Virus record (IMG/VR): IMGVR_UViG_3300029267_002069
Location: 1-20,995 of that record
Source of the DNA: a virus
Reading direction: 5' to 3' (one strand)
DNA length: 20,995 bases
The notes beneath the pieces were generated by a model. The model did no database searches. It was not told where the DNA came from and was given only the letters and a program-made list of their open reading frames with translations. The position numbers and the translations under genes were made by a program. Shown piece after piece: positions 1-20,995 of this stretch. The number at the start of each line of letters is the position of its first letter. Within the stretch, counting starts at the first letter, position 1.

Positions 1-953
1 GAAAAACTATTGGTAGTATTTACACCAGATAAAAGCTTAGTTACTACTCCATTATTATACAGGTATATACTACATCTTGATCCAAATAAATTAAGGTTAT
101 TATCTATTACAAATTTCCAGAATCTATCAGCATCAGATAAGGAAAAAGAAAAGCCTTCTCTCCTGGCAATGGATGGGCCTTTATTAAGATCTGTATTTTG
201 GCTGGGAAGATTAATATTCTTATAAGTAAGAAAGCCAGCTTTAAAAGTTATAGTACCATTATCAGGATCATCATCTGGAAGATCAGCAGATACATCAGCA
301 AAAGTAGCTAGATGAAACTTACCATTTATAAGCCCCAGCTCAGCACCAGTAATATTACCATCTACTACATTATCAGCTATTACTGTATAAAGAAATTCAG
401 CTGTACCAGATACATTCTCATATAAAGAGTTATCATCTGTATCCATCCATCTTTCACCATCTACCCAGGCTCCAGGCTCTGAAGCTTGATAATAATCTGC
501 CTGTACAGTATCTATAGTAATCAAAGCATCAAAGTTAGAATTAGATTCATTAGGTATATCATCAGATTCAGTACCAGCTAAAGCTACTTTAATAGATACA
601 GTATATAGATTATCTGTTACAGAAAAATCTTCTTCCTGAAGCCCTTTAGGTTCCAGGATGTATACATAATAATCATTACCAGAGATACCAGTAAAAATTT
701 TCTCCCCATCATTTTCAGCTTGAATTAAAACCTTATTACCAGCATTAGCTATAAGGTAATCTACTAAAGCTACAAACTGAGATTTTTCAATATTGATTAA
801 AGTAAATTCAGCTATTCTTTCTTGCCTAGCTCCATAGCTTAAAGGATCCACCAGCCCAGAAACCATAGATCTAAATTTTACAGTATCCAGTTTAGGATCT
901 TGTGCAGATGTATAGCCTAAAACTAAATCATATGATACACTATTAATAATCAT
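1..953 (-). CDS. Tail-tip/baseplate-type structural protein, 3' end outside window
   Basis: The frame stays open from ATG at 953 to the left edge, giving at least 317 residues; the C-terminus is missing. The start overlaps the stop of the preceding 147 aa gene as ATGA, which suggests coupled translation. The N-terminal part (about residues 1-130) alternates beta strands and polar loops. Two Asp/Gly/Asn-rich segments follow, and then a stretch containing SFSLSDADRFWKFVIDNN and IYLYNNGVVTKLLSG that recalls tail-tip hub proteins. There is no signal peptide or membrane segment. Its place after the tape measure and adhesin genes fits a tail-tip or baseplate component. I do not recognise a named family, so only the structural role is inferred, from position and beta-rich composition. 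Confidence 0.7.
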   Translation of the reverse strand, partial: MIINSVSYDLVLGYTSAQDPKLDTVKFRSMVSGLVDPLSYGARQERIAEFTLINIEKSQFVALVDYLIANAGNKVLIQAENDGEKIFTGISGNDYYVYILEPKGLQEEDFSVTDNLYTVSIKVALAGTESDDIPNESNSNFDALITIDTVQADYYQASEPGAWVDGERWMDTDDNSLYENVSGTAEFLYTVIADNVVDGNITGAELGLINGKFHLATFADVSADLPDDDPDNGTITFKAGFLTYKNINLPSQNTDLNKGPSIARREGFSFSLSDADRFWKFVIDNNLNLFGSRCSIYLYNNGVVTKLLSGVNTTNSF

Positions 954-1393
954 GTAGTGGCCGTTATTAAAGTATTCAAGTAAGTAATGCTAATTTCATA
1001 ATGGGCTGGCATATTTCTTTTAGGGGATCCGATCTTAATAATTCTTACTGGATTCTCTGTAGCATCTCTTAAGAAAAGCTGTAAGCCGCAAATAGCTAGA
1101 TTAACTATAGAATCTTTATTATTAACATGAAAATTATAAAAAGCATCCATGTTAATATCTCTGATCCTATATCTTAATGTTATGTATTCATGCCGCCATA
1201 ACTGCTCAGATTTTTGTACTCCCTTCCATTCCATTGAATCTTTTCTGAAGGAAAGAACATTGGCTTTTCCAGAAGGCTGAATAGGGTATAATACTTCTAC
1301 TCCTGTCATTGGTACAGCTGGAGCTTTAGGCTGGAAGGTTCCGTACCTATGCCAGCCAAAGCCAAATGATGTATATCTGGATACTATAGCCAT
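950..1393 (-). CDS. Small tail-tip protein, 147 aa, family not recognised
   Basis: A 147-residue protein that begins with ATG overlapping the previous stop (TAATG) and ends overlapping the next start (ATGA). It is therefore locked between the 997 aa fibre-type gene and the partial gene at the left edge. The sequence is rich in aromatic and basic residues (GFGWHRYGTF near the N-terminus; WRHEYITLRYRIRDINMDAFYNF around 66-88) and reads as a compact beta domain without signal peptide or membrane helix. Such small proteins beside large tail genes are often distal-tail or baseplate adaptors. That role is inferred from position only. Confidence 0.75.
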   Translation of the reverse strand: MAIVSRYTSFGFGWHRYGTFQPKAPAVPMTGVEVLYPIQPSGKANVLSFRKDSMEWKGVQKSEQLWRHEYITLRYRIRDINMDAFYNFHVNNKDSIVNLAICGLQLFLRDATENPVRIIKIGSPKRNMPAHYEISITYLNTLITATT

Positions 1394-4386
1394 TATGTTA
1401 TTATAAACCCATCAGAAGCTGAAGGAGTTTCAGTTAAAGCTGTTACATGAATAATTTTATTGGTTCCATCATAGTCGGTTATATCTGAGCTTTGCCCAGT
1501 TAAAGCTCCTGAAATAAAGGTTACTATTCTTCCATTATAATGATCATCAGTAGTTTCAGTAAGATTAGTTTTAAACTGTATCTGGCTATTACCAGCATCA
1601 GCCGCCACTAGAGCAGATACAGTACCCTTCATACCATCTTCAAGCTTTGAAGCTTCTGTAGCATTATCATGTATCTGTTTAATGTTACCATCAGCTATGC
1701 CAGAATTAAGGTTTATTTCTCCAGTACCAGTACCAGATTTAATAGTAACCTTTGGAGCACCAGCAGTATCTGGAGTAAGAACAGCCGAACCATTCCAGTA
1801 TGTAACATTAGCGGCTATAGGCTCAGAGTTAGTAATGGCAGTTTCTACATCACTAACTGATAAATCATTAAGAGCATTTATCTGGTTAGGAATATCTGTA
1901 CCTGTATAGGTTTTTATGAAACCAATATTTACAGCATTACTATCACATGTACCATCTATTTGAGCAGATATTAAGCGGATAGCTTCTAATGAATCAGTAG
2001 TATTATCATATGTATCCCAATCTGCTGTAGCCGCTATAGAAACAAGCTTAGCAAAAACTGAATCATCAGTAACATCAGTTCCTGTAACTGCTACCTTAAG
2101 AAGATGATCAAGATTCAAACCTACTAGAGCATCATTACATTCGCTTTCTACTTCAGCATCCCATGAACTATTCCAGGGTATATTAGAGAAACCAGATCCA
2201 TCAGAATAATCAGTTAATGTTCTGGCTCCATATGCCCATACAGCGGCTGGAGTAGTGCCGCCACTAATGCCGCCTATAGCATCTCTAATAGCTTCAAGAG
2301 AGTCTGTACCAGTATCAAAGCCAGTACCTTGTATATCGTTTATATCTCCATTTAAGTTAGGAAGATAATTTGCCGCCGCTTCACTATCTGAAATAGCACT
2401 AACATCCACCGTGGGATATTGAGTAGCTACACTCAGTTGAACAGCTACATCCAGCCACTCTCTTACATTTACATGGAAACCAGTAGGATCTGCCTGAGAT
2501 TGGTTTTCCCATTCATCGACCACGTTTGAAGGTATAGTATTAGCGAGTTGAACAACACTAGTACCTACTGAATTATCGGTTATACTAAAGTTGCCGTAAA
2601 CATAAAGTGTCCCGCCGGTACAGTTAGAGGACAATGTTATCTGACCCCGACCATGTATGTATGCTACGTCCGTAGGCACGGCTCCAAGTTGCCTTATTTC
2701 CATACTGCCGCTATAGTCGTGCATAAAGAGCGTAGTACTTGCTACTGATGCACCGAAATTAATTATTGGTTCGGTGGTCCCAGTGTCGGCATTATAGCAA
2801 GAATCAAAATGATAGTCAGAGGCTTCGGCAAGTATGATTTGACCCCTTAACCCACATCTTTTTACAGTGCTCCCAGTTAAGTTGGTATTGGTACCGCCGC
2901 CTATTGTGCCGTTTATCATTTTCGGATCGTTAGTATTAGCGGTCATATCTCCCATAACCCGACAACCCACTATAGAAACATCTTCCATAGATTGAGAATT
3001 AGGATCTAGGTCCCAGTTCTCACCGATAAAATCGTAGTAGTCAGAATTGGCGGTAAGCTGAATAGATGAGCCATTAGCTATATGGAATTTTTTAATACCA
3101 AGGGATCCCGCAAGAGTTAATGCCGCCGCCCATGTGCTTACAGGGTTATCTATTGTCCCGTCTACATAATCCGTAGTGTTAGTGTTAGAGGCATTAGTGT
3201 CCACATATATACGCCCATCAGCGTAAACCGTGGCTTTTGTAATATCGGTAAGAGAATGAGTGTCTTTAGTAAACCCTGTTCCCTTAATATCATCAAGGTC
3301 AGTAATGATAGCGTCTTGTTTAGCTTCTGTAGCATCTCCACCAGTAGGAGCCAGTTCTAAAGCATTAGCAGTAAATTGAGATACCCCAGCATCATTACCT
3401 ATAATTTCATTAAGTAGTGCAGTAGCAACCCCAGGTTTTGCGGCTGGATCATAATCCACCGCAAACAAGTGATCAAGATGTATATCAGCTAGAGCGGCAT
3501 CTACCTCAGCATTAACTTGAGCTTCACTCAAATCATTAAGGGCGGCAAAACTTGCATCCATTTCTGTTTTAGTAGGCCCATCATAATCAGATAGTGCCGT
3601 ATCTACTTCAGCATTAACTTGAGCCGCACTCAAGTCATTAAATCCTGTTAACTCAGTACCCTTTGCAAGAGCACCAGACACATCATCAAGATCAATAGTA
3701 GCGTCAAAGTCTTTTCCACTTCCTAAACCTGTAGCTTTAATACCAGCACCATTACCACTATTCATGTAGGCATGTATACCTCCTGAACCATTTTCACCAA
3801 TACACTCTAAACCAGAGCCAGATGTAGTACCTCCCTGAGCGATAATACCAGCCTGATTTCCTTTACCTACAGCCTGTATACCAGAAGAGTTAGTAGCTCC
3901 ACCTTCTGCATGTATACCATCCCCATTAGAAGCTCCACCTACTGCATTAAGCCCATGCCCAGTACCATTACCAGTAAGTTTAATAGCATCCTTATTTGAA
4001 TCCTGAGTAGTAATATCCAGGGAATTTAATTTCAAATCTCCTAACAGAAATTCTCTATGAGCTATTTCATTATTACCATCATCATAAACAGAGATAGCTA
4101 CCCTATCAGCTCCAGTAGCAAAAGCGGCATCAGGTACATCAGCTCTAAAAAGAAAATATGATCCTTCTGAAGTATCAGAAGAAAGATAAATACCATAGTT
4201 ATCTGTATGAGCAGTAGTTATAGAAGCCAGAGCTGTCATAGCTACAGCAGTACTATCAGTAAAGCTTGTACCATCCCCATCACTCCATCTTACATAACCC
4301 AGCTTAAACCCTGTAACAGCAAGATTTTGTGTTAATGCAAACATTACAGACTGGTTAGTAGAACCTTTTCTGATTACATCGATCAT
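1393..4386 (-). CDS. Large modular tail fibre/adhesin with central beta-helix
   Basis: A 997-residue modular protein, probably a receptor-binding tail appendage. In order: an N-terminal domain (1-125) with WSDGDGTSF and DNYGIYLSS, probably for tail attachment; six Gly-rich repeats of the G-x-G-hydrophobic-x-A-x-G type (about 138-222); two copies of an (S/E)AQVNAEVD(T/A)AL helical motif (253-305); a beta-helix-like region (about 385-625) with YVDTNASNTNTTDYVDG, an NPVSTWAAAL segment and short repeated turns; a second linker (681-701); and a C-terminal domain (about 890-997) with GRIVTFISGALTGQSS and ITDYDG, a fold I associate with phage structural proteins. The start overlaps the previous stop as ATGA. 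Residues about 363-624 are encoded by DNA much richer in CpG than the rest, a sign of module exchange. An enzymatic depolymerase activity is possible but no catalytic residues can be assigned. Confidence 0.8.
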   Translation of the reverse strand: MIDVIRKGSTNQSVMFALTQNLAVTGFKLGYVRWSDGDGTSFTDSTAVAMTALASITTAHTDNYGIYLSSDTSEGSYFLFRADVPDAAFATGADRVAISVYDDGNNEIAHREFLLGDLKLNSLDITTQDSNKDAIKLTGNGTGHGLNAVGGASNGDGIHAEGGATNSSGIQAVGKGNQAGIIAQGGTTSGSGLECIGENGSGGIHAYMNSGNGAGIKATGLGSGKDFDATIDLDDVSGALAKGTELTGFNDLSAAQVNAEVDTALSDYDGPTKTEMDASFAALNDLSEAQVNAEVDAALADIHLDHLFAVDYDPAAKPGVATALLNEIIGNDAGVSQFTANALELAPTGGDATEAKQDAIITDLDDIKGTGFTKDTHSLTDITKATVYADGRIYVDTNASNTNTTDYVDGTIDNPVSTWAAALTLAGSLGIKKFHIANGSSIQLTANSDYYDFIGENWDLDPNSQSMEDVSIVGCRVMGDMTANTNDPKMINGTIGGGTNTNLTGSTVKRCGLRGQIILAEASDYHFDSCYNADTGTTEPIINFGASVASTTLFMHDYSGSMEIRQLGAVPTDVAYIHGRGQITLSSNCTGGTLYVYGNFSITDNSVGTSVVQLANTIPSNVVDEWENQSQADPTGFHVNVREWLDVAVQLSVATQYPTVDVSAISDSEAAANYLPNLNGDINDIQGTGFDTGTDSLEAIRDAIGGISGGTTPAAVWAYGARTLTDYSDGSGFSNIPWNSSWDAEVESECNDALVGLNLDHLLKVAVTGTDVTDDSVFAKLVSIAATADWDTYDNTTDSLEAIRLISAQIDGTCDSNAVNIGFIKTYTGTDIPNQINALNDLSVSDVETAITNSEPIAANVTYWNGSAVLTPDTAGAPKVTIKSGTGTGEINLNSGIADGNIKQIHDNATEASKLEDGMKGTVSALVAADAGNSQIQFKTNLTETTDDHYNGRIVTFISGALTGQSSDITDYDGTNKIIHVTALTETPSASDGFIIT

Positions 4387-6557
4387 GTTTGGAAACCTCC
4401 CAGAAATCCTCTATTAAAATTCCCTCTTAAATTTGTCAAAAGCCCATCTTCACTAGGGCTAAAATTAATAACAGCTATGGAAAATTTAGCTTCAATGCTA
4501 GAGCTAGATCCTCTAATCATAGATATGTTACTATTAGATGTTAGATCTACAGTAAAAGCAAACTCATCCCCATCTTCAGCCGTATCTTCTGAAGAAACTA
4601 AAGAAGGCTCCAGGCTTTGATGTACAGCAATAGAAACATCACTATCTACAGTAGGGGATAAAGTTTGGCTTTCTGTATCCCCACTTTCCAAAGTATTCAG
4701 GTACTGGTAAACTACAGCATCATCAGTAAATTCAATAACAAAAACTCTATAATAAATACCATGAGCTACAGCACTATATTTTCTGAAGGTGACAGTGTCA
4801 ACATCGGTCAACTCCATGTTGACGATCTGGTCCCCGTCATTGGTATTGGAGCCACTGTCCCGGAGCGTCCCAACTAAGAATGTTTTTGATACAATAAAAG
4901 ATCCAGCCGTATCGTCGGTAAACGATGTTGCCGCATCCGAATTGGTACCATTAAGCCACTGAACTTCACTACCATCGTATTGCACGACCTGTATGCTGTA
5001 CGTGCCAGCAATCCCGCCAGACGTAGCTCTTTTGATCAGACAATTATTTGAATGCTCAAACTCTACACTTATTCTCCCATCCGAATCCAGAGCAGTCTGG
5101 TTAATCGCATAGTTCATCATTATAAATGATCTATACCTGTTAAACGGATTGGTGAATGTTTCCTCTTCATCAGTTACAGCCGCACCCATTGCCTGATTAT
5201 TAAACCTCTCCACAGTAACACCAGCACTAAATTCAACTAACTGATATTCTATAGTAACTGTACCTGAAGATCCATACCTAGTAGCTTGAATGTTAGTAGT
5301 AGAAGACATGTATACATCACAGTGTACATCATCAGCCCCAGGTACATCTCCCCCACTATTTCTAACACTCGTAAACAGAATAGATTTTGATAAATCTACA
5401 GCAGTAACAGATTGGCCCTGAGATGTACCAGACATGGTAAAACTCCCTCTCTGTATGTTATCAATAACTACTGTAGCAGAAGTATCTGTTATAGCTGTTC
5501 TAGTTCCTTTACTGGCAAAGTTAGCTGGATCTCCCTGGTTTCTCTCCAGGGCTAATCTTAAAGCTTCTTGAGCAGAATCCAAAATAATTACATCATCCAT
5601 GAAACCTTCATAATCATCAGCATCATGATCTGAGTCATTACCTAAACATATCACATTAGCATTATCATTATCCACAGCAGTTATACTTATATTAGATTTC
5701 CATTCACCATCTACATAGACTTCTACTGTACCATTTAAAAAATGAAATCCATATATATGCCAGCTATCATCACCTATGGAAGAAGTAACTGTAAGAGTAG
5801 CAACAGACGCAGTATGACCACGAACTTTCATCTGTGTGTCACTACCACTCACTCTGGATATTTCAAAACCTGTTTCATCTTCTCTGCCATCTTTTTTAGA
5901 TATAATTATTTCATCTGCTGAAGGATTAGTTACATCAGTTTTCAGGGCAAACTGGACATAGAAAACAGGACCTAAGTCTACATTAACTAAATCAATGTAA
6001 CTGCTTCCATCCCCTGTAAACTCTTGCCCGTCAAAAAATTGACCAGATGTAGCTGAATGTATAGGATCGCCAGAGCTTTGTTTAGTACCATCATTACTGT
6101 TTGAAGTCCTGTCTGTAAGAGTCGTACCTGACGATTCCATGCAGTAATAACCTTTGTAGTCTGAAGGATATACATTATCTCTGCCGTAGGTATGATCACT
6201 AGCTAAAGCTGTTTCTCTGGGCATACCCCATGCAACATGTATAACTGTGTCACCAGAAGCCGTAACTTCTGGAACTTTAACATGAATCTCCACCTTAGAG
6301 TTTGCTGGTGTATTGTCTAGATCAAAGTTTACAATATCAAAAGCAAGTGGAGTAAGTAAATTTGTATTGCTGTCAAAAAATCTTACATCAGCACCACTAG
6401 CAAGAGGGGCATATGTTCCATCAGCATCGAGAAACTCATCTGGCAAATGATCTTCAGTAACTTTGAAAACAAAATCAGTAATATCAAATTTAATCTTAGC
6501 ATCATCAATAGTTATTGACGCATAAGACTCATAATCTCTTGCGATGGAATCAGCCAT
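4383..6557 (-). CDS. Tail appendage protein with DUF2341-like and LamG-like domains
   Basis: A 724-residue protein with an N-terminal DUF2341-like region (about 20-125: FKVTEDHLP, ADVRFFDSN, VEIHVKVPEV, DTVIHVAWG). A concanavalin/LamG-like jellyroll follows (about 136-345: GYYCMESSG, DGSSYIDLVN, WHIYGFHFLNGTVEVYVDG, GFMDDVIILD). The C-terminal half is made of related beta-sandwich units, each with an SxxV-type start and an ending such as VEF, IEF or VINF. These combinations bind carbohydrate or protein surfaces, so host-surface adhesion is the likely role. The gene starts 3 nt after the preceding stop with only a weak SD, which suggests coupled translation. About 4801-5150 (residues 470-586) is unusually CpG-rich. 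DUF2341 and LamG are assigned from pattern memory. Confidence 0.8.
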   Translation of the reverse strand: MADSIARDYESYASITIDDAKIKFDITDFVFKVTEDHLPDEFLDADGTYAPLASGADVRFFDSNTNLLTPLAFDIVNFDLDNTPANSKVEIHVKVPEVTASGDTVIHVAWGMPRETALASDHTYGRDNVYPSDYKGYYCMESSGTTLTDRTSNSNDGTKQSSGDPIHSATSGQFFDGQEFTGDGSSYIDLVNVDLGPVFYVQFALKTDVTNPSADEIIISKKDGREDETGFEISRVSGSDTQMKVRGHTASVATLTVTSSIGDDSWHIYGFHFLNGTVEVYVDGEWKSNISITAVDNDNANVICLGNDSDHDADDYEGFMDDVIILDSAQEALRLALERNQGDPANFASKGTRTAITDTSATVVIDNIQRGSFTMSGTSQGQSVTAVDLSKSILFTSVRNSGGDVPGADDVHCDVYMSSTTNIQATRYGSSGTVTIEYQLVEFSAGVTVERFNNQAMGAAVTDEEETFTNPFNRYRSFIMMNYAINQTALDSDGRISVEFEHSNNCLIKRATSGGIAGTYSIQVVQYDGSEVQWLNGTNSDAATSFTDDTAGSFIVSKTFLVGTLRDSGSNTNDGDQIVNMELTDVDTVTFRKYSAVAHGIYYRVFVIEFTDDAVVYQYLNTLESGDTESQTLSPTVDSDVSIAVHQSLEPSLVSSEDTAEDGDEFAFTVDLTSNSNISMIRGSSSSIEAKFSIAVINFSPSEDGLLTNLRGNFNRGFLGGFQT

Positions 6558-6560
6558 ATT

Positions 6561-6821
6561 TTATAAGCTCAGTTTGTCTACAGCGGTTTTAATGGCTATG
6601 ATTTCCGCAAGGTTCCCGGCCACTTCGTTTTTCTGTTCTGTTGTGAAAGAAGCTTCAGAACCTATCATGCTACTTAAGGCTGTAAGCTCATCATGTATAG
6701 TAGTAATACGAGTTTTAAACTCTGTTAATCTTTGAGTAGCCTGTTTAGTCAAACTAATAATTTGATCTGGAGCAGTCGTTTTATTTTTCAGCTGTTCCAT
6801 CTCTGTAGTTATAATAGCCAT
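6561..6821 (-). CDS. Small coiled-coil protein, 86 aa
   Basis: I start this protein at the ATG at 6821 rather than 6836, because a GGAGG site lies 8 nt upstream of 6821 and nothing comparable precedes 6836. The first gap is then 1 nt after the upstream stop. The product is almost entirely helical with heptad-like spacing (EMEQLKNKTT, LTKQATQRLTEFKTRITTIH, NEVAGNLAEIIAIKTAVDKL). It has no Cys, signal peptide or membrane segment. It is probably an oligomeric helper or small virion component of the tail tip. No family is recognised. Confidence 0.7.
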   Translation of the reverse strand: MAIITTEMEQLKNKTTAPDQIISLTKQATQRLTEFKTRITTIHDELTALSSMIGSEASFTTEQKNEVAGNLAEIIAIKTAVDKLSL

Positions 6822-6834
6822 TTTAATTTCCTCC
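6822..6834 (-). promoter_or_regulatory. SD inside upstream gene that decides the 86 aa start
   Basis: GGAGG (6834-6830) overlaps the Gly-Gly codons at the end of the 107 aa gene and lies 8 nt before the ATG at 6821. The alternative ATG at 6836 has no such site. Confidence 0.75.
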
Positions 6835-7146
6835 ATTCTTTTTTAATTGGTTATAATCTCCACCACTTTTTCCTACTAGATAAGCCATGCCTACTTCTAG
6901 CCCATGTATAGAATTATCATGTTTACCATTAATTTTTTCTAAGCGATCAATCTCTTTTCCTACTCTATGCATAGCTGGTATACAATCTTCTTTATCTACC
7001 TTTTCAGCTATAATTTTTTTAAGTGAAGTTTTAGCATTATGTTTTTTATTATGGGCTATATTGTACCATGCTATAAGAAACATTCCCAAAAAATTTATAA
7101 GACCAGCCACAAATAGCATATGTAGATCATTAGTAGTCTGTTCCAT
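6823..7146 (-). CDS. Membrane-anchored coiled-coil protein, 107 aa
   Basis: Starts with TAATG overlapping the tape-measure stop. Residues about 8-32 (LHMLFVAGLINFLGMFLIAW) form one hydrophobic helix. A basic stretch (HNKKHNAKTSLKK) follows, and then a helical region with a possible coiled coil (KEIDRLEKINGKHDNSIHGLEVGM). The positive charges after the helix predict that the C-terminus stays in the cytoplasm. The topology resembles small phage membrane proteins such as holin-like or spanin-like components, but no lysis gene adjoins it and its place is between tail genes. A tail-tip or infection-channel role is equally possible. Function is unassigned. Confidence 0.7.
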   Translation of the reverse strand: MEQTTNDLHMLFVAGLINFLGMFLIAWYNIAHNKKHNAKTSLKKIIAEKVDKEDCIPAMHRVGKEIDRLEKINGKHDNSIHGLEVGMAYLVGKSGGDYNQLKKNGGN

Positions 7147-12863: not shown

Positions 12864-13373
12864 TTAATAAAGTGAAGTAGGATCACTTCTTTTCTGCCTA
12901 AATTTTACATCCATAGTAAAGGTAAGCCCAAACTGATCTTTATGATCCATAATATCAAAAATGGTAGTGTTTACTGGAAGAGCTATAAGAGCTGTACCTT
13001 CCAGATTCCCAGCTGTATCTGTCATACTATAAGCTGGATTTCCTCCCCATACATCATCACAAAATCTAACCTCTATATCTGCCATAAGGTTAATTAACAG
13101 ATCATCCCTGATCCTTACTTCTGCTTCTTCCATGTATACATCCAGTAAAAATCGAGTAGTTTTCATCAGCTTGCCAGCTTCATTATTTTCTGGATTTAGA
13201 TAAACAGTATCACTACTGATTACATTAACAGCTGGAAACTGTTCTATATTTTCTAATGATACATCCCCTTTATTTACTTCTCTTATATCTGTTAAATATC
13301 CATTAGCTACAGTAATATCCTGGATCATTTCTACGATCTTATTATGGATCACTCTCTGTACTACTTCAGGCAT
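12864..13373 (-). CDS. Probable tail terminator protein
   Basis: A 169-residue protein that begins at TAATG with the preceding stop. The N-terminal helix (EVVQRVIHNKIVEMIQDITV) is followed by an alpha/beta domain containing NIEQFPAVNVISSD, TTRFLLDVYMEE and IRDDLLINLMADIEVRF, and later FGLTFTMDVKFRQKR. This helix-then-beta layout, with a conserved-looking FPAV motif and a DVYME strand, is typical of tail terminators that cap the tail tube and join it to the head. Position between the gp10-like gene and the tail-tube gene supports this. No direct family motif is decisive. Confidence 0.7.
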   Translation of the reverse strand: MPEVVQRVIHNKIVEMIQDITVANGYLTDIREVNKGDVSLENIEQFPAVNVISSDTVYLNPENNEAGKLMKTTRFLLDVYMEEAEVRIRDDLLINLMADIEVRFCDDVWGGNPAYSMTDTAGNLEGTALIALPVNTTIFDIMDHKDQFGLTFTMDVKFRQKRSDPTSLY

Positions 13374-13855: not shown

Positions 13856-13857
13856 AT

Positions 13858-14682
13858 CTATACATGTATGTTTCTATACCTATCCAGAATAGAAGCTACT
13901 TCAGGTAAAAATTCATGTTCAAACTTATTCGCCCTTCTACTTTGGGATCCCCTGGAAGTAGAAAAGTTTTCATAATCCCCTCTATGATCATTCATGTATC
14001 TGATCTCAAGCTCACAAGCTACAGTAAGATCTGTATATTCTTCAGCTATACATCTTACATCAGCTGAAGCTATGTCAGCAGTTTGATCAGCTGTTTTAGA
14101 TCCTGTCTCAGTAGCACTTCCAGCTATCTGTTCTCCTACTTCAAATCTTCCATATAAAACTTCTATAACTATGGTAGTAAGAGTTTTACTTATAACATAA
14201 CCCATAGCTCCTGAAGTTTGCCCTTCAGCAAAAACCCCAGCTACAAAAGCTTCTGATCCTTCATTCTCAATAGTGAAAGTAGATTGAGTACCTGAAGCGG
14301 CTAAGCCGCCAGTATATACTACTTCCAGCCCTCTTTTAGCTGGGATAACTGGAGTTTGTAAACATATAGATCTTTCCTGAGATCCTATGTATGTATCTGA
14401 TTCTGTAGTTTCAGATCCAGTAAACTCTCCTGTACTATCAGACTTAACAGAAGTTAAAACAGTTATAGGGAAATTCCTTACAGGATATTCTATAGTTTTA
14501 GGCAAAGTATCAAAATATTCTGTATGGCTTTTCAGCTCCAGATCCCTGTTAAGGTACTCTTCTATTTTCCTGGAGATAGCTGGAATCCAGCTTAAAAATT
14601 TCCGCTTATTTACAGCATCATCTGTAAGGGGAGTATTCCCCCCTAAAAAATATCTAGCTCTTCTCCAGCTTGTAAGATTCAT
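13858..14682 (-). CDS. Head-tail connector (gp6-like) with inserted beta domain
   Basis: A 274-residue protein. The N-terminal part is the alpha-helical core of gp6-like connectors (DDAVNKRKFLSWIPAISRKIEEYLNRD, about 21-47), followed by PVRNFPITVLTSVKSD and a strand ending VVYTGGLA (121-128). The helical C-terminal part (ACELEIRYMNDHRG, EFLPEVASILDRYRNI) completes the core. Between them, about residues 132-203 form an extra beta-rich segment with GQTSGAMGYVISKT and GRFEVGEQIAGSATETG, a motif I associate with surface modules on phage structural proteins. The family is usually shorter, so the insertion explains the length. AAGGAG lies 8 nt before the ATG, outside the upstream stem-loop. Confidence 0.75.
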   Translation of the reverse strand: MNLTSWRRARYFLGGNTPLTDDAVNKRKFLSWIPAISRKIEEYLNRDLELKSHTEYFDTLPKTIEYPVRNFPITVLTSVKSDSTGEFTGSETTESDTYIGSQERSICLQTPVIPAKRGLEVVYTGGLAASGTQSTFTIENEGSEAFVAGVFAEGQTSGAMGYVISKTLTTIVIEVLYGRFEVGEQIAGSATETGSKTADQTADIASADVRCIAEEYTDLTVACELEIRYMNDHRGDYENFSTSRGSQSRRANKFEHEFLPEVASILDRYRNIHV

Positions 14683-14703
14683 TTACTCAGCTCCTTTAAG
14701 GAA

Positions 14704-14745
14704 GGGAGCAGATACATATAAATTAACCAGGATGTATCTGCTCCC
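14704..14745 (-). other. Perfect 14-bp stem-loop in the 77-nt gap before the connector gene
   Basis: GGGAGCAGATACAT (14704-14717) is the exact reverse complement of 14732-14745, with a 14-nt loop. The arms lie between the stop of the 153 aa gene at 14760 and the connector start at 14682. There is no run of T after either arm on either strand, so it is not a classic intrinsic terminator. On the minus strand, AAGGAG follows the stem and stays single-stranded. It may act as an attenuator, processing site or 3'-end stabiliser. Confidence 0.8.
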
Positions 14746-14759
14746 AGGTATGGCAGTTA

Positions 14760-15221
14760 TTAAGGATTCTGATGATCGAAGTCTACAGTATTATCCTGAG
14801 TTACAGGCTGATCTTCAGCACCAGCCAGCAATACATTAATGCCAAAAGCTTTAGAGCTGGCATCAGCATTAGTAACTTTGATAAAACAGTATCTTTTCAT
14901 ATCCCTAGCTCTTACTCTGATGATAAGAGTTTTATCATCATCAGAAGATCCCAGCTGATCAAAATCAGCCGCTGTACCAGATCCATCTGTAAAAGCAGTA
15001 GCGGCTTCTCCATCATCAGTAGCTGAATCAAAAACAGCTACATCCAATGTACCAGTGATAGCTCCCAGGCTAAGCTCTACTAACATCTCATCAAAGCCCT
15101 GAGTATCAATACCTGAAGCCGCCGCCGCTGTAGTATTGTTATAAGTGGTAAGAGTAGCTGTTACAGTTTCTGGCGGCACTACCTGAACCACTTTTACTTC
15201 TTCATGTAATCCTTTAATCAT
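14760..15221 (-). CDS. Beta-rich structural protein, candidate head decoration, 153 aa
   Basis: A 153-residue protein read as a beta sandwich: KVVQVVPPETVTATLTTYNN; GFDEMLVELSLGAITGTLDV; AVFDSATDDGEAATAFTDGSG; TLIIRVRARDMKRYCFIKVTN; and GINVLLAGAEDQ. It has no signal peptide or membrane helix. Its start at 15221 overlaps the 123 aa gene by 8 nt but has a strong AGGAG with a 7-nt spacer, the same site type as the capsid and tail-tube genes. Together with its place after the capsid gene, this suggests an abundant virion protein, perhaps decorating the head or forming an outer ring. No specific family is recognised, so the role is inferred. Confidence 0.7.
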   Translation of the reverse strand: MIKGLHEEVKVVQVVPPETVTATLTTYNNTTAAAASGIDTQGFDEMLVELSLGAITGTLDVAVFDSATDDGEAATAFTDGSGTAADFDQLGSSDDDKTLIIRVRARDMKRYCFIKVTNADASSKAFGINVLLAGAEDQPVTQDNTVDFDHQNP

Positions 15222-15585
15222 TTTTATTCTCCTGTTTTTTAGTAATATTTTTTAATTGATTGAAAATTGGAGTATGTTTTTCAGGCTCTGCTAAAGTGAT
15301 CGCAACATCAGGGCTTCCATTATAAGATGGTTTAGAAGAATCTTGTTTCTTCTCTTTTCCCCTGTTAGCCAGATCATTTAAAGCAGAGATAAGATTATCC
15401 TTAGAGATCTCACAGTTAAAGCTTTCTCCTGGTTTACCTTTTGAAATAAGATCAGCTATAGCTATTTTAAGCTTAGCCGCACTTTTTTCATTAGGAGATC
15501 TAGGGATACTTAAACAAGCTTTCTCTACACTAGAGATAGGAGTTAAAGTATCAGCTTTACTTTTTATCTCATGGTTTATTCTCAT
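15214..15585 (-). CDS. Hypothetical head-module protein, 123 aa
   Basis: A 123-residue soluble protein that starts with ATGA overlap and ends inside the 153 aa gene. The N-terminal part has IKSKADTLTPISSVEKACLSI and a helix (EKSAAKLKIAIADLISKG); the C-terminal half is polar and charged (KKQDSSKPSYNG, KHTPIFNQLKNITKKQENKND). Two Cys residues are present without a metal-type spacing. I do not recognise it. Its only clue is the position between the Lys-tail gene and the 153 aa gene. Confidence 0.65.
   Translation of the reverse strand: MRINHEIKSKADTLTPISSVEKACLSIPRSPNEKSAAKLKIAIADLISKGKPGESFNCEISKDNLISALNDLANRGKEKKQDSSKPSYNGSPDVAITLAEPEKHTPIFNQLKNITKKQENKND
15222..15233 (-). promoter_or_regulatory. 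Strong SD leader of the 153 aa gene, inside the 123 aa gene
   Basis: AGGAG (15233-15229) with an AT-rich 7-nt spacer lies within the last codons of the 123 aa gene. It is nearly the same as the capsid leader and supports independent, strong initiation at 15221. Confidence 0.75.
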
Positions 15586-15875
15586 CCCTTAGCCTTTTTC
15601 TTTACAGCCTTCTTCATAGCTTTCTTAACTTTAGAAAGCTTTGATTCAGGCTTACTTTCTTTCTTAGCTTCCTTCTTAGGAGCTTCCAGCTTCTCTTCCT
15701 TTTTAGGAGTTTCAGCTGGAGCTTCTAAGATGGTAACTTTTTTCTGAGCCTGTAGAGTTAAAGCCCTAGCATGGGGAACAGTACATACATCCCCCTTATA
15801 AAACAGCCCTTGAGCTGTCTGATAGCTAGGTACTTCAACTCTAACCAGAGTATCATTACTCATTACTTCTACCAT
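15582..15875 (-). CDS. Small protein with histone-H1-like Lys/Ala/Pro tail, 97 aa
   Basis: The ATG at 15875 lies inside the end of the capsid gene; a second ATG at 15863 (MSNDTLVRV) would give 93 aa, and neither has a strong SD, so the start is undecided. The N-terminal 50 residues form a beta domain (LVRVEVPSYQTAQGLFYKGDV, CTVPHARALTLQAQKKVTIL) like small SH3-type phage proteins. The C-terminal half is dominated by Lys with Ala, Pro and Glu (AETPKKEEKLEAPKKEAKKE, then KVKKAMKKAVKKKAKG), as in histone H1 tails. Nucleic-acid binding or capsid-interior packing is plausible; function is unassigned. Confidence 0.65.
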   Translation of the reverse strand: MVEVMSNDTLVRVEVPSYQTAQGLFYKGDVCTVPHARALTLQAQKKVTILEAPAETPKKEEKLEAPKKEAKKESKPESKLSKVKKAMKKAVKKKAKG

Positions 15876-17122
15876 TCACTTTCAGTAGTGGCGGCATCAG
15901 AAATAATAGAGAAGGCTTCAGGATGTAGTACCAGAGTATCTATATCCAGGAAAACTACCAGCCAAGTCTGATTACTCTGGAAAGCTGTTCCAGCTACATC
16001 AGAAGACTTAATAGCCATGCCGCCCCATAGGCCCATAGCGAACTGTTTCCACTCCCCTACTACAGCTTTAGAAAGAGTAGTAGAAGATCCCTTAGCTATG
16101 TTCTTAGGAACATTAGTAGTGCTTCTAACCTTCAATCCCAGAGTTTCCTCCAGTACTTTATCAGTCATAAGGGGATTAATCAGAGGCATGCCTAATGTAT
16201 CTCCAGAAAACTGGGCTACTCTTTCTCTCTTCAATCCAGATTTAACTCTGGGATGGCAGAGTAAGCCGCCCTGATCCTGGATCTTCAGGTAGTTATCATC
16301 CTGTACATCAGCGATCATAGAAGCTACCTTATCCACTGTAAGCCTTCCACCATTAGCACCTATAGCTGTAGCTGTATTCAGGCCAGTAGCGTTAAGGATT
16401 CCCAGAGGCTGAGAAGCTGAGCCAGTACCAGTAAGACCAATCTGATCCACTCCCAGGCTGATCCCTTCCTGCATAAGCATTCTTACAATAGGCTCAGCGG
16501 CACTCTGTTGCTTCAGAAGTTTGTTACTCATCTTCAAAAGCATGTTGCCAGTTTTCGGCCTGAGCTGTTTAAGCCCAAAAGCGATCTCTTTTTCAGTAGC
16601 ATTAGCACCATCAGCCGCCCATGTAAGAGTAGGACGATCTTCAGCTTCAGGAATATCTACATCATCTGTAAGATTGGGCCACATAGTGATCCCCAGTTCC
16701 TGAAGTACTGTCTGGGCCAAAGCTGGCTTAAGGATCTTATCCATAGCAAGCTCTGTAGGAATAAGATAAGCTCCCTGAGCACCAGTATTAGTATCCTGAG
16801 CTTTTTTCCTAGCTTCCTGAAAAATCTTCTGCTCCAGCTCAGCATTAGACCATTCACCAGTAACAATAGCATGGCAAGCTTTAGCAAAGCTAAAAGGCTC
16901 CCCTTTATAAGTCTCTTCATCTGAACCAGGAACAGATACATTAGTAGCTCTAACAGCTTTAACATACTCTTCCATCTCAGCTTTCATTTCAGCCTTAAGA
17001 GCTGTAATTTTGCTATCTGTCATAGATTCATTATCTTCCTTCTGCTTAATCAGATTTTCCTCATAAGTTTCCAGGAAGGAATCCATTTTTTCTTCCAGAG
17101 TCTTTTTGTTATCTTCAGGCAT
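15869..17122 (-). CDS. Major capsid protein, HK97 fold
   Basis: A 417-residue protein. Residues 1-60 are a charged coiled coil (LEEKMDSFLETYEENLIKQK) like the HK97 delta/scaffold region, normally removed by the prohead protease. The capsid core then shows GAQGAYLIPTELAMDKILKP, a W-N-L-T-D-D-V-D-I-P stretch, AADGANATEKEIAFG, LRPKTGNMLLKMSNKLL and GLTGTGSASQPLGILN, the pattern of HK97 gp5-type proteins. AGGAG with an 8-nt spacer precedes the ATG at 17122. A 52-nt gap with a 13-bp tandem repeat separates it from the protease gene. The last codons overlap the start of the 97 aa gene. It is the main shell protein and substrate of the upstream protease. Confidence 0.93.
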   Translation of the reverse strand: MPEDNKKTLEEKMDSFLETYEENLIKQKEDNESMTDSKITALKAEMKAEMEEYVKAVRATNVSVPGSDEETYKGEPFSFAKACHAIVTGEWSNAELEQKIFQEARKKAQDTNTGAQGAYLIPTELAMDKILKPALAQTVLQELGITMWPNLTDDVDIPEAEDRPTLTWAADGANATEKEIAFGLKQLRPKTGNMLLKMSNKLLKQQSAAEPIVRMLMQEGISLGVDQIGLTGTGSASQPLGILNATGLNTATAIGANGGRLTVDKVASMIADVQDDNYLKIQDQGGLLCHPRVKSGLKRERVAQFSGDTLGMPLINPLMTDKVLEETLGLKVRSTTNVPKNIAKGSSTTLSKAVVGEWKQFAMGLWGGMAIKSSDVAGTAFQSNQTWLVVFLDIDTLVLHPEAFSIISDAATTESEW

Positions 17123-17135
17123 TTTTTATTCTCCT
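17123..17135 (-). promoter_or_regulatory. Strong SD leader of the major capsid gene
   Basis: AGGAG (17135-17131) with an AATAAAAA-type spacer precedes the ATG. The same leader form appears before the 153 aa, tail-tube and signal-peptide genes. Confidence 0.8.
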
Positions 17136-17144
17136 GTTTTAATT

Positions 17145-17176
17145 AAGGTTTTAAGTTAAGGTTTTAAGTTAAGGTT
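17145..17176. repeat. 13-bp tandem repeat in the protease-capsid gap
   Basis: AAGGTTTTAAGTT occurs at 17145-17157 and again at 17158-17170, followed by a partial third copy that runs into the protease stop codon. The units are short enough to arise by slippage. The AT-rich spacing may set distance between the genes or bind a protein, but no function is shown. Confidence 0.85.
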
Positions 17177-18437
17177 ATTTTAATAAGGCTTTCATTTTTG
17201 CTGAAGCATTATCTAAACATGAGTATAGAGCTTCTGAAGCTTCCCCATCTTGATCGCTCTTGCTACTCTCTTCTTCAGGAGTAGAAGATGATTTTTCTGG
17301 TTCAGGTTCTTTAGGCTCAGCCGCCTGTAAGATACTCTTCAAATCTTTTTGTAAATCTTTCAGAGAATTTAAAATTCTATTAATAGTGTCTTTATTTTTC
17401 TGGGAAAGAACAGAGCCAGCTTTTTCTACTATGTTAGTTACTGCTTCTTTCTCCTGGTACATATTTACATTAACTTCATGCCCAGACTGTTTTAGAGATC
17501 TTGCTAGTATCAGCTTCTCTCTCATATCTTCTACATTATCCTTTTCAGATACATGTATAGTAATAGGCAGTTTAATATCACTAATACCTTCAGATTTTTC
17601 TTCTGAGTTTTCTTCACCTTCAGGCTTTTCTTCTGCTGGAGTATCCAATGATTTTTTATCTGTTTCATTATTTTCTTCTGTAGGATCCTGATCCCCAGCT
17701 GGATCATCTCCTTTTTTCAGAAGCTCTATATGTTCATCAGATACTCCAGCTTCTTTAAGAGTATTCAAAGCTTCTTCTGTATACATACCTTTTCTAGCAG
17801 AAATTTGAGTAGCATTAGGATTAGCTGGGATAGTAACTATTGAAAATTCCCTAAGCTCAATCTTATCAAAAATTATTCCAAAATCATCCAGCTTAAATTT
17901 TGCTTTCTCTTCTGGAGAAGCCAGCCTTACATTTTCAGGTTTAGCTGTAAAACCTATGGATCCATTTTTCAAAGCTCCAGCCTTTACCATTCTGAAAGTA
18001 GATTCAGCCATACCTGTTCTATCGATCTCATCATCAAAAAATAAAACCTTGCCCACTACATCATTAGCTTCTTTATCGTAAACAGTTTCTATAGATTTTC
18101 CTATGGGGAAGCTATGAGCATCATGCTGTAAAAGAATGATCGGATCTTTTTTATAAGATTTTAAATTTACTCCTGAAGGAATGATTACTTCATTATGCCG
18201 ATCTGCTGTAGCATCTGTAAACCTAAACTGTACTACTCGCTCTTCCATACCTTCCTGGAAGGTAAGCCCGATCTTATTACAGAGCTTCTTACATTCAGCC
18301 GCTGAAATTTTAACAGCTGAAGAAGCCTTCAGCTCCAGGCTCATACTTTTTTGATCTTTTAAAGAATCTACTACATCCTTTAAAGCGGCTTTAGCTTTTG
18401 CGGCTGTATCTCCCAGATCAGATAATGTTTTAGGCAT
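17175..18437 (-). CDS. Prohead protease (HK97 family, U35-like) with acidic C-terminal extension
   Basis: A 420-residue protein. The catalytic domain lies at about 65-215: VVQFRFTDATADRHNEVIIP, LLQHDAHSFPIGK with His105, KNGSIGF with Ser160, and the closing ELREFSIVTIPANPNA. His and Ser are the catalytic pair expected for HK97-type proteases that mature the capsid. The remaining half is acidic and disordered (about 235-300), then helical (DTINRILNSLKDLQKDLKSI), and ends with SEALYSCLDNASAKMKALLK. This C-terminal part could act as an internal scaffold or target the protease into the prohead. An N-terminal helix (1-30) precedes the catalytic core. AAGGAG with 8-nt spacing supports the start at 18437. 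Confidence 0.88.
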   Translation of the reverse strand: MPKTLSDLGDTAAKAKAALKDVVDSLKDQKSMSLELKASSAVKISAAECKKLCNKIGLTFQEGMEERVVQFRFTDATADRHNEVIIPSGVNLKSYKKDPIILLQHDAHSFPIGKSIETVYDKEANDVVGKVLFFDDEIDRTGMAESTFRMVKAGALKNGSIGFTAKPENVRLASPEEKAKFKLDDFGIIFDKIELREFSIVTIPANPNATQISARKGMYTEEALNTLKEAGVSDEHIELLKKGDDPAGDQDPTEENNETDKKSLDTPAEEKPEGEENSEEKSEGISDIKLPITIHVSEKDNVEDMREKLILARSLKQSGHEVNVNMYQEKEAVTNIVEKAGSVLSQKNKDTINRILNSLKDLQKDLKSILQAAEPKEPEPEKSSSTPEEESSKSDQDGEASEALYSCLDNASAKMKALLK

Positions 18438-18451
18438 GTTACAATCTCCTT

Positions 18452-18607
18452 TTATTTAGTATTAAAATAGAATCCTCTAAGCTGATGGGGAACTATTCTT
18501 TCACCAGTATCTGGATGTTTAAGCTCTTCCATTACATCTTTTTTAGTTTTAACAGCTGGCTTCTTAGCCGCTCTTTTCTTTACTGCTTTTTTCTTTCTTA
18601 TCTTCAT
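18452..18607 (-). CDS. Very small basic protein, 51 aa
   Basis: Start ATG at 18607, with AGGAG 8 nt upstream, and stop TAA at 18452-18454. The N-terminus is strongly basic (MKIRKKKAVKKRAAKKPAVK), then KKDVMEELKHPDTGERIVPH and a C-terminal QLRGFYFNTK. The Lys/Ala/Pro composition is similar to the tail of the 97 aa protein near the capsid gene. Presence of a good SD and a place in a tight operon support a real gene. Nucleic-acid binding is plausible from charge; function is unknown. Confidence 0.6.
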   Translation of the reverse strand: MKIRKKKAVKKRAAKKPAVKTKKDVMEELKHPDTGERIVPHQLRGFYFNTK

Positions 18608-18623
18608 GCTGGCTTCTCCTGGT

Positions 18624-18782
18624 TTAGTACTCTGTTATTTTATTTGGTTCAGATTTAGCTCCTATATGTATAGATTCATCAGCTATAATTCTCTGGCTTC
18701 TATGTATGCCTGAAATCTTCCTTTTAATATTAGCCCAGCTGAAAGCTGTATTATCTTTTTTCTTTTCTTCTTCTTTACTCAT
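18624..18782 (-). CDS. Very small protein downstream of portal, 52 aa
   Basis: Start ATG at 18782 overlaps the portal stop as ATGA, and the TAA is at 18624-18626. The sequence is charged at the N-terminus (MSKEEEKKKDNTAFSW), then basic (ANIKRKISGIHRSQR) and mixed (IIADESIHIGAKSEPNKITE). No motif is recognised. Coupling to the portal suggests that the two are made together, but no role can be stated. Confidence 0.55.
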   Translation of the reverse strand: MSKEEEKKKDNTAFSWANIKRKISGIHRSQRIIADESIHIGAKSEPNKITEY

Positions 18783-20926
18783 TTTACTGCCTCTGTAGTA
18801 CATCTACAGTTTATAACTTCTGATGGAGCACCATTAGAATCTAATGGCTGAATAAGCCCAGTAACAGGAAAAGGATCACCTACTTTAACTCCAGGCCCAT
18901 CTCCTTCTAAAGCATGTGTATGCCTTACCTTTTCATCGGCGGCTGTTACCCATCTCCATTTTTCAATCTTCTCAGCTTTAAAAATCTTTCCTTTAGTGGC
19001 CTGAGCTACAGCTGATGTTTCTGTTCTAGCTATAGTCATAGAATTTTTAATTCTGAAGTTATAGAAATCTTTTGTAGTGTTTTTAATTTCTTTAGCTAAC
19101 TGCTGAGTAGTTAAATTTTGTCTTAACCCAGTTTCAATAGTACCAGTAAGTTTATTACCCAGAGTTTTAAAGTTAGTAGTATTCACTCCTTTTAAAAATT
19201 CTATTCTCTCTTTCCTTATAGCTGATGTTACTTTAGGGCTGGGCTTATAATTTAAAAGCTGGCCTAAATCTTTTTCAGCTTGAAGAGTTTGTAAGCCTAT
19301 AGTTTCATCATATATGGGAGCCGCCATCTCCATAAGAATTTTATCTTCATTCAGTTTACCAGATATGAAAGCTGAAATTCTTACACCTTCAGGCTGAGCT
19401 TTTGATTTATTAGCGGCCCAGCTATCTACCCTATCCAGTATTTTATTTCTCTGCCTGATAAGGTACTTTTTAAACTCTTCATTAAATTTTTTCTCAGGCT
19501 TCTTCAGTACATTAGTAACATGATCTAACCATGTAGTAGAAGCTTTTTCTTCCAGGAGCTTTACAGCTTCAGGCTCACTTGAAAGATATTTCATGTAAGC
19601 TTTCTCAGCTTCAGAATTTCCCTGGTTTACAGCTCCTATAACTTCCCCAGTATTCAAGTTTACTCTGGGCTTAACTACTAAGGGCTGGCTTAACCAGGGA
19701 TACATGTTAAGATTATTTACTGGAAGATTAACAGTCCTGTAAGCTTCATCAGCTGGTAAGCCCTGCTCTATTAAAAGTTTTGCATCCTTAATTTTTTGGC
19801 TTACATCTTTTTTCAGCGGCTGTACATTAGAAAGATCAAACTGGCCTACTATATTTTTATTTCCTAAATGCCTTATAAACTGGTTATTCAATCCTAACCA
19901 AAGTTTATCTATCAGAGGCATTAATGTATCTTCCCAAAAAATTTCTTTCTCTACTTTTGCTGTAGCTCTGTTTACTGTATCCGTTAAACCCAGTACAGTT
20001 TTAGGTACTCCATATACAGCCAGAATTGTATCTCTATTCATTTGTCTCTGATCTGTAAATTGAAGCTCTTGTAAATTTTTAGCAGTCTGTTCAAACTTTA
20101 AGCCACTATGTAAGAAAGCTGTCTTACCAGCTTTAGACCAGCCTTCATACTGATCAGCCCACATATTTTTTATGCCTTCAGCCTGATTAGTAGTAAGCTT
20201 ACTATCTGTTTTCAGTATGCCGCCTACATTAGCTGAGTTATCCATAAACTTATCTGAAAGCTCTGAAGCCTTAGCATCAGCTGTAGCTGTAATAGCTATG
20301 GAGCTGTAAGGGCTTAAACCCAGGAGCCAGTTATAAGGATTAAATAATCTAACCCTGATTAACTGATCTGGATAAAAAATAAGCTCTTCCCCTGAAGGAT
20401 GTTTATACTTCCATCTTACTGATGTTTGCTCTGCTTTATCTCCCTTAACAGGTTCTATACTTTCATCTGAAAAAGGAAAAAGATAAGAAGGAAGCTTACC
20501 ACTTATAAGGCTCATCTGCTCCCCGTTTTTATCCAGGGGAAGAATAAAACATTGACCACCAGGGGAAACTGTAGTAGGAAGCATAAGGTTTAATAAAACA
20601 GCTTCAAAAAATTCAGAGCCATTCATTAAATTATTAGGATTTCTAAACAGAGCGATTAACTCATTATCCCTACTAAACTCTTCTGGATTATTTTTATTAC
20701 CCACTATTACAGGTAGGCGGCTAATGTTATTAACTATGGCAGATACAGCGGCATATACCCAGGGATGTTTAGCATAAGGTTGTCTAGTTATAGCAGATAC
20801 ATTACCAGAGCTTCCCCCAAATAACGTCCACCAGCTTTTCATAAAATTAGGATCAAGATCAGGTACAGATTTTGTATCTATCTCTTGCCCTGTATGATCA
20901 AAAAGTACTACATCTTTTTTCGGCAT
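18779..20926 (-). CDS. Portal protein fused to C-terminal MuF-like domain
   Basis: I start at the ATG at 20926 (MPKKDVVLFDHTG), which has AAGGA 6 nt upstream; the open frame extends 19 codons further without a good SD. The 715-residue protein combines two head proteins. The N-terminal part (about 1-430) is an HK97-type portal: KHPWVYAAVSAIVNNISRLP, FRNPNNLMNGSEFFEAVLLN, NPYNWLLGLSPYSSIAITAT, and DRQMNRDTILAVYGVPKTVL. The C-terminal part carries MuF signatures: ARTETSA (633-639), DEKVRHTHALEGDGPGVKVG and EVINCRC (703-709). Portals form the DNA-entry ring; MuF-type domains accompany head assembly and may be carried with the DNA. The middle (about 430-600) is helical. Two separate genes are more common, so this is a fusion. 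Confidence 0.93.
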   Translation of the reverse strand: MPKKDVVLFDHTGQEIDTKSVPDLDPNFMKSWWTLFGGSSGNVSAITRQPYAKHPWVYAAVSAIVNNISRLPVIVGNKNNPEEFSRDNELIALFRNPNNLMNGSEFFEAVLLNLMLPTTVSPGGQCFILPLDKNGEQMSLISGKLPSYLFPFSDESIEPVKGDKAEQTSVRWKYKHPSGEELIFYPDQLIRVRLFNPYNWLLGLSPYSSIAITATADAKASELSDKFMDNSANVGGILKTDSKLTTNQAEGIKNMWADQYEGWSKAGKTAFLHSGLKFEQTAKNLQELQFTDQRQMNRDTILAVYGVPKTVLGLTDTVNRATAKVEKEIFWEDTLMPLIDKLWLGLNNQFIRHLGNKNIVGQFDLSNVQPLKKDVSQKIKDAKLLIEQGLPADEAYRTVNLPVNNLNMYPWLSQPLVVKPRVNLNTGEVIGAVNQGNSEAEKAYMKYLSSEPEAVKLLEEKASTTWLDHVTNVLKKPEKKFNEEFKKYLIRQRNKILDRVDSWAANKSKAQPEGVRISAFISGKLNEDKILMEMAAPIYDETIGLQTLQAEKDLGQLLNYKPSPKVTSAIRKERIEFLKGVNTTNFKTLGNKLTGTIETGLRQNLTTQQLAKEIKNTTKDFYNFRIKNSMTIARTETSAVAQATKGKIFKAEKIEKWRWVTAADEKVRHTHALEGDGPGVKVGDPFPVTGLIQPLDSNGAPSEVINCRCTTEAVK

Positions 20927-20937
20927 AAAATATCCTT
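20927..20937 (-). promoter_or_regulatory. SD site deciding the portal start
   Basis: AAGGA (20937-20933) lies 6 nt before the ATG at 20926. No comparable site precedes the upstream in-frame ATG at 20983, so I place the portal start here. Confidence 0.75.
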
Positions 20938-20954
20938 CAAAACCACTATATATA

Positions 20955-20983
20955 TTAATAGCATATGTTCTATAATGAAGCAA
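20955..20983 (-). promoter_or_regulatory. Weak sigma70-like promoter candidate upstream of portal
   Basis: On the minus strand, TTGCTT (20983-20978) and TATTAA (20960-20955) are separated by 17 nt and lie about 30 nt before the portal start. Each box matches the consensus only in part, and the region is AT-rich, so chance is likely. The true operon promoter may lie outside the window. Confidence 0.2.
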
Positions 20984-20995
20984 GTTATAAGTTTA

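Follow-up and report, generated by a model that had tools for sequence, protein, structure and literature searches.

Elimination of recognition sites is a documented strategy of phages (Rusinov et al. 2018, PMC6286503). In the part of that survey that deals with elimination, it affects 7.1% of orthodox Type II sites, compared with less than 0.5% of the sites of other types, its increase is confined to non-temperate phages, and GCWGC is treated both as a Type IIM and as an orthodox Type II site. A cytosine methyltransferase specific for GCDGC has been reported (PMC8936443); such an enzyme treats GCWGC and GCSGC differently, so a split between the two is biochemically possible, although no GCDGC-type enzyme was found among the proteins scanned from the phage studied here. 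Among seven other phage or viral-contig stretches that we used for comparison, four are without at least one word (at most 5% of at least 12 expected), foremost Bacteroides phage Versailles (ON453897, 41,260 bases), with GATC 0 of 129, GGCC 0 of 123 and CTAG 0 of 78 expected, and fecal phage MT835482 (50,000 bases), with CTAG 0 of 53 and CCWGG 1 of 46 expected. Unlike the virus described here, these two have ordinary GCWGC numbers (55 of 66 expected in Versailles, 113 of 109 in MT835482), and across all seven stretches GCWGC stands at 0.83-1.22 of Markov expectation. Short words that are over-used in genomes are known as well, HIP1 of cyanobacteria and Chi sites being examples. Like these, GCSGC in the present virus is over-represented in more than one reading frame; unlike them, it comes without a reader, polarity or host evidence, and goes together with the loss of GCWGC.

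What we describe below resembles avoidance of Type II sites, as far as the cases set out in PMC6286503 go, in that a real restriction site has been purged throughout a dsDNA phage, mainly synonymously. It differs from those cases in that several words were lost at once, in that the sister word GCSGC is over-used where nothing forces it, and in that the enzyme is one that we infer.

Absence of GCWGC from the virus sequence

The window is an entire virus record of 20,995 bases, in which predicted portal and head-morphogenesis, prohead protease, HK97-type capsid and tail tape measure proteins (Table 1) mark the virus as a tailed phage. A second IMG/VR contig, IMGVR_UViG_3300017987_000122 (51,791 bases), matches positions 2560..20995 of the window at 100% identity (18,436/18,436 bases) and adds another 33 kb past it, with genes for terminase, a family A DNA polymerase, a Toprim primase-like protein, an SNF2-type helicase, Sak4-like and ParB-like proteins, and many small genes. 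We analysed the 54,350-base union of window and contig, of which positions 1-20995 are the window, without assuming that it is a complete genome. Gene calling was mechanical and gave 87 ORFs, 81 of them on the minus strand; the codon-context tables and the junction model described below used minus-strand ORFs only, leaving out the ORF at 10718-11677 (319 aa, minus), whose overlap with the adjacent gene exceeds 50 bases. The Pfam scan covered 70 distinct proteins, with part of it reporting families per protein set and selected proteins rescanned singly; the tape measure, the portal and the product of 13858-14682 were searched by PHROGs only, and the protein scans left out the N-terminal stretch of PolA, nine short minus-strand ORFs (41-59 aa) and the six plus-strand ORFs. 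No integrase family was found among the 70 Pfam-scanned proteins of the union, which is possibly a partial genome.

Table 1. Features of the 54,350-base union (numbering as in the window up to position 20995)
Feature	Position	Strand	Evidence or remark
CCGG site 1 of 3	2615..2618		
CCGG site 2 of 3	4860..4863		
CCGG site 3 of 3	6616..6619		
Tail tape measure protein, 908 aa	7146..9872	-	PHROG 1533, E 1.6e-57
HK97-type major capsid protein	15869..17122	-	Phage_capsid PF05065
Prohead protease	17175..18437	-	Peptidase_S78 PF04586
Portal protein fused to head-morphogenesis domain	18779..20983	-	PHROG 2662, E 2.3e-69; head-morphogenesis matches at residues 479-733
ParB-like protein	23418-24149		PADLOC MTase_II, E 5.3e-9; phrog_498, E 1.4e-13
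188-aa protein with short sialyltransferase-like match	25050-25616		PF00777, E 9e-7, residues 2-49
Lar-like zinc ribbon	27157-27339		PF14354, 25.0 bits (cut-off 28.6)
Dam-type adenine methyltransferase (predicted)	29009-29542		PF05869, E 1e-17, above cut-off; NPPY in translation
ArdC-type protein (predicted)	33915-34790		PF08401 and PF18818 above cut-offs; PHROG anti-restriction protein, E 1.9e-64

The earlier note had claimed that GCAGC and GCTGC are wholly absent from the window and that GCSGC occurs there more than fifty times. Counting gave 0 and 0 for the former and 75 for the latter (45 GCCGC and 30 GCGGC), and the zero extends to the whole union, its 3,249 noncoding bases included, with both strands covered by symmetry; GCSGC occurs 162 times in the union. 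Together, four null models put the expected number of GCWGC sites in the union at 63-105, namely 100.6 on a codon-preserving shuffle (sd 5.8, with a minimum of 87 in 300 shuffles), 105.4 (sd 5.3) on a junction model built from codon usage and from the trinucleotides across codon junctions, 65.9 on a maximal-order Markov null and 63.2 on an all-subword (Burge) null. For the window alone the codon-preserving shuffle, a check that the note had proposed, expects 54.4 (sd 3.9, minimum 44), and in both sequences zero lies far below the minimum. Another proposed check, a search for under-representation among words of four to six letters, places GCWGC at the lowest probability of the 33,087 motifs tested, all with at least five occurrences expected (10^-28.6, on the smaller of two expectations). 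Run on six other phages, the junction model predicted their GCWGC and GCSGC totals to within about 25%. A ratio of 0.00 with 63-105 sites expected falls under the ratio of 0.1, at more than 15 expected, that the relevant part of PMC6286503 takes for this kind of call. The zero is thus confirmed as real and not a product of chance. Since GCSGC remains at 162 sites in the union, an enzyme that recognizes GCNGC is ruled out, as the note had concluded.

Synonymous routes and the use of GCSGC

The bias was said to act through synonymous choice, and the codon tables bear this out. In the called minus-strand genes the first codon of an Ala-Ala pair is GCC (52) or GCG (46) in 98 of 98 cases, whereas Ala codons without a following GC are GCS in 135 of 1,127. 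The tape measure gene, credited with well over ten such pairs, has 18, every one opening with GCG (11) or GCC (7). Of the two examples quoted from it, GCG GCG GCG GCT does read so on the plus strand at 9372-9383 (the gene being on the minus strand), whereas GCC GCC lies at 8325-8330 and not at 8329-8334. The description of Ala as normally GCT or GCA was loose: GCT does dominate the called genes (858 codons), but GCC (176) exceeds GCA (138), with GCG at 61. Outside Ala-Ala pairs, all 3 Gln codons flanked by G and C are CAA, none of the 51 Leu codons in that context is CTG, and the 24 AGY or TGY codons (Ser or Cys) that follow xGC are all AGT or TGT, so all three frames obey the GCWGC rule. The Ala-Ala effect by itself could mimic a codon-pair or translation bias, but such a bias is refuted, and we give it practically no credence, because GCWGC is missing from all three frames: in the two frames other than that of Ala-Ala, the codon shuffle predicts 23.7 sites and the junction model 31.4, and 0 were found.

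The same rule bears on base composition. CpG in the union stands at 0.22 of expectation, and 162 of the 397 CpGs fall in GCSGC, so that the CpG-rich patches are in good part a footprint of the GCWGC rule itself. The patches do obey the rule, as had been claimed, with GCWGC at 0 throughout, but the donor once invoked for them is unnecessary, given the share of CpGs that GCSGC holds. Depletion of CpG through methyl-cytosine decay was considered and is unsupported (the TpG/CpA ratio is 0.94, with no surplus). Arg is mostly AGA or AGG, at 675 of 738 codons in called genes.

Avoidance of GCWGC forces GCSGC in the Ala-Ala frame only. When GCWGC is forbidden, the junction model gives 98 GCSGC in that frame, exactly the 98 found, but in the other two frames it gives 3.8 + 5.0 or 3.9 + 7.8 (two runs) against 31 + 25 found. 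In these two non-wobble frames, 1 and 2, which were singled out post hoc as the ones that Ala-Ala pairs do not force, there are 56 GCSGC sites where 9-12 are expected. The frame-assigned total is 154, compared with 162 in the DNA, and a site in a gene overlap may count twice. In frames 1 and 2 GCCGC/GCGGC is the most over-used of the 512 pentamers (z 12.5), while across six control phages the z of pentamers in these frames peaks at 6.6, and a GCSGC excess is absent from all of them. The junction model fits the virus less well than the controls: its z values scatter more widely across pentamers, with a spread of 2.08 against 1.16-2.03. Codon contexts point to the whole word. Arg is CGG in 13 of 21 codons flanked by G and C and in 16 of 701 elsewhere (5/93 with only the G, 2/71 with only the C); for Pro, CCG makes up 12 of 18 codons so flanked and 11 of 548 elsewhere (3/106 and 0/33 with only the G or only the C); and Gly is GGC in 28 of 36 codons that follow xGC, compared with 8 of 39 that follow other C-ending codons. 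Interaction P values for the three contexts are 3e-8, 4e-16 and 7e-7, respectively, and the preference belongs to the pentamer GCSGC.

This excess in frames 1 and 2 is the new part of the finding, and simple avoidance leaves it unexplained: contrary to our own expectation for such avoidance, the near-cognate word is not at neutral frequency. The literature that we consulted on site avoidance, GCWGC methyltransferases and phage Chi, a small sample, gave no report of sister-site enrichment. The Bacillus-type Chi word AGCGG was tried as a cause and rejected; it occurs 101 times against 58 on the codon shuffle, but in 85 cases it is part of AGCGGC, which shows that the final C is required.

Other missing words, anti-restriction genes and relatives

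GCWGC is the strongest in a set of eliminated words. GCGC occurs 0 times in the union (12-48 expected over the nulls run) and CCGG 3 times (24-74 expected), and both losses are firm under every null run. GATATC (0, 10-19 expected), GRGCYC (0, 17-45 expected) and CCTTTC (0, 4.5-30 expected) were probably purged as well, though for these three the case depends on the null: the non-palindromic CCTTTC/GAAAGG is expected 27-30 times on the Markov, codon and junction nulls and 4.5 times on the all-subword null, which also expects merely 2.3 GAGCTC. Known enzymes for GCGC, CCGG, GATATC and GRGCYC are HhaI, HpaII, EcoRV and BanII, respectively, and TseI, ApeKI and BbvI are those for GCWGC. All three remaining CCGG sites (Table 1) are confined to the first 6.6 kb, where the genes downstream of the tape measure are located, with 0 in the next 47.7 kb; these first genes may be newer arrivals, or may come from a partner without a history of CCGG restriction. 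GATC is found 402 times against 289 on the codon shuffle, an over-use that may be linked to the phage's own Dam-type enzyme, but against 377 on the all-subword null it is hardly over-used. CCTTC (193 against 115) and, in the model genes, CACTA (94 against 45) are also over-used.

The predicted Dam-type, ArdC-type and Lar-like genes (Table 1) fall within about 8 kb of the union. The first has the PF05869 match and the NPPY motif expected of phage Dam-type adenine methyltransferases; it scored under the cut-off of TIGR01712. The putative ArdC-type protein has matches to the N-terminal domain and to a zincin-like peptidase domain (E 4.3e-21 and 1.7e-35), and its H-E-x-x-H motif is invariant in an alignment with four relatives. 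The zinc ribbon falls short of the PF14354 cut-off for the restriction alleviation protein Lar and is called Lar-like only. Among the scanned union proteins, no cytosine-5 methyltransferase family was found with Pfam, PHROGs or PADLOC. The methyltransferase matches of the ParB-like protein probably reflect a ParB domain shared with such enzymes, a reading based on its better PHROG matches, which are to ParB families. Nor did the scans give a credible match to a restriction nuclease, the sole REase_II match being a 55-residue zinc-finger segment (E 4.7e-5). Thus, the genes scanned offer no evident methylation route that would shield GCWGC, which fits avoidance.

Relatives of the virus are distant. 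Megablast of the window against phages gave no match, and searches of viral contigs with the portal, terminase, PolA fragment, primase-like protein, SNF2 helicase, capsid and Sak4-like protein returned the virus itself, plus two further records at 27% identity for PolA. In protein searches of named phages all relatives were below 60% identity, at 20-46% among the matches listed, and ArdC matches in plasmids reached 43% among those listed. An ArdC alignment search of genome contigs found relatives in many phyla (best 80 of 364), so that it carries no host signal, and the capsid search of such contigs gave 27 pattern matches and no relative. In whole genomes, capsid relatives at E <= 1e-20 were present in 9 of 297 from the phylum of Desulfocarbo (29-36% identity, best E 2.9e-66), compared with 1 of 296 from the phylum of a Prolixibacteraceae MAG, 1 of 296 from that of a Sphaerochaeta MAG, 2 of 199 from that of Halalkalibacter, and 0 of 291 from the class of a Clostridiales MAG, an empty answer that is uninformative alone. 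Capsid relatives are thus more frequent and closer in the Desulfocarbo phylum than in the four other groups, which is at most a weak hint to the host. The five loci examined, from five of these nine genomes and each about 4 kb, have 7-16 GCWGC sites against 10-16 expected and thus no avoidance; these five loci are GC-rich and merely 31-36% identical to the virus capsid. Terminase relatives (24-28% identity) occur in 12 named phage records, of which 10 belong to phages of Polaribacter, Bacteroides, Cellulophaga or Flavobacterium, all Bacteroidota. A ribosome-binding-site-like word is found upstream of 38 of 58 genes on a permissive test that has no background control; such words are unusual for Bacteroidota.

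Explanations of the missing sites

Escape from restriction, which the earlier note had offered as the likely meaning, stands as the best explanation: GCWGC was probably purged by selection, a Type II enzyme in the host range cutting the unmodified site. A newly arisen GCWGC would be a target for cutting and would be lost. Escape would be mainly synonymous, with GCC or GCG placed ahead of an Ala codon, G-CAG-C and G-CTG-C avoided via another codon or another preceding wobble base, and AGT or TGT chosen after xGC. Other Type II systems would then underlie the loss of GCGC and CCGG, and probably of GATATC, GRGCYC and CCTTTC; against other restriction routes the phage would have its Dam-type methyltransferase and its ArdC-type protein. 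The zero and its significance, the synonymous routes, the further missing words and the family membership of the anti-restriction genes come from the sequence itself; that hosts carry such enzymes, with these specificities, is what we infer, together with what the phage proteins recognize and whether they are active. Several observations weigh against this explanation: six words lost at once are many, some of them being null-dependent; the distant capsid relatives in bacterial genomes keep GCWGC; a ParB-like phage protein matches methyltransferase profiles; and avoidance alone predicts no GCSGC excess outside the Ala-Ala frame.

The last of these could mean that the whole GCNGC family is under selection, with a central A or T barred and a central C or G favoured, and with GCSGC acting as a protective modification, binding, Chi-like or decoy site and not as a harmless leftover. 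This two-sided rule would add to the best explanation; we consider it possible, though doubtful. The pentamer-specific preference for Arg CGG, Pro CCG and Gly GGC, and the top rank among 512 pentamers in frames 1 and 2, speak for it. Yet there is hardly any strand polarity (sense GCGGC 87, GCCGC 67), we know of no reader of GCSGC, and under-use of GAGG, GCCCC and CAAC in GCSGC contexts may push codon choice towards the word. Statistics conditioned on subwords also give little or no excess, with 162 sites found against 126.7 on the Markov and 370.8 on the all-subword null; and with all frames pooled and GCWGC forbidden, 154 against about 107-110 leaves GCSGC outside the six most over-used pentamers. 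On our reading the subword nulls miss the excess since GCSGC sites mostly make those subwords themselves.

Other accounts do without selection by an orthodox enzyme on the phage. One may consider that the host chromosome itself lacks GCWGC and that the phage merely matches it, and bacteria are reported to avoid their own Type II sites as well (PMC4687349). However, in the relevant part of PMC6286503 prokaryote genomes have fewer nearly excluded sites than non-temperate phages do, and none of 79 loci of at least 5 kb (73 ArdC-bearing bacterial stretches and six control phages, none of them known to be from the host) has clear elimination of GCWGC, the lowest by ratio being 0 of 3.9 and 2 of 6.7 expected; we regard such matching as improbable. 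Pressure from a GCWGC-specific, modification-dependent enzyme (Type IIM, BisI-like) or from a phage-carried nuclease seems more improbable still. GCWGC and GCNGC do count among Type IIM sites, but the same part of that survey ties modification-dependent enzymes to only weak avoidance in phages, and the scans gave no evident phage cytosine methyltransferase and no credible restriction nuclease match. About as unlikely, if not slightly more so, is a mutation or repair process that, like very-short-patch repair, turns the centre of GCWGC into C or G in place, with no restriction involved. It would account for the GCNGC number being roughly kept (154 in modelled genes against 140 expected, W and S together) and, in contexts flanked by G and C, for a shortage of Gln (3 against 12.0) beside an excess of both Arg and Pro (21 against 14.5 and 18 against 11.2, respectively). 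Transitions alone, however, predict GCC and GCG at 86:14, the proportion of GCT to GCA, where 52:46 was found; Gly-Gly pairs show no excess (62 against 69), nor is there a shortage of Gly-Ser (121 against 73), so the frame-1 sites look like synonymous choices; and no such enzyme was seen in the union proteins scanned. Pure A-to-G conversion was rejected.

We therefore return to restriction escape, and view the finding as best explained as a strong example of a known strategy, site loss against Type II restriction, given the published elimination rates and the control phages that have lost other words. Complete loss of a site hints at the kind of enzyme in the host range, so that the sequence of a phage can help to track down its host. 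Should the GCSGC excess reflect true selection, avoidance would gain a second side, in which the phage gathers the uncut sister of the cut site.
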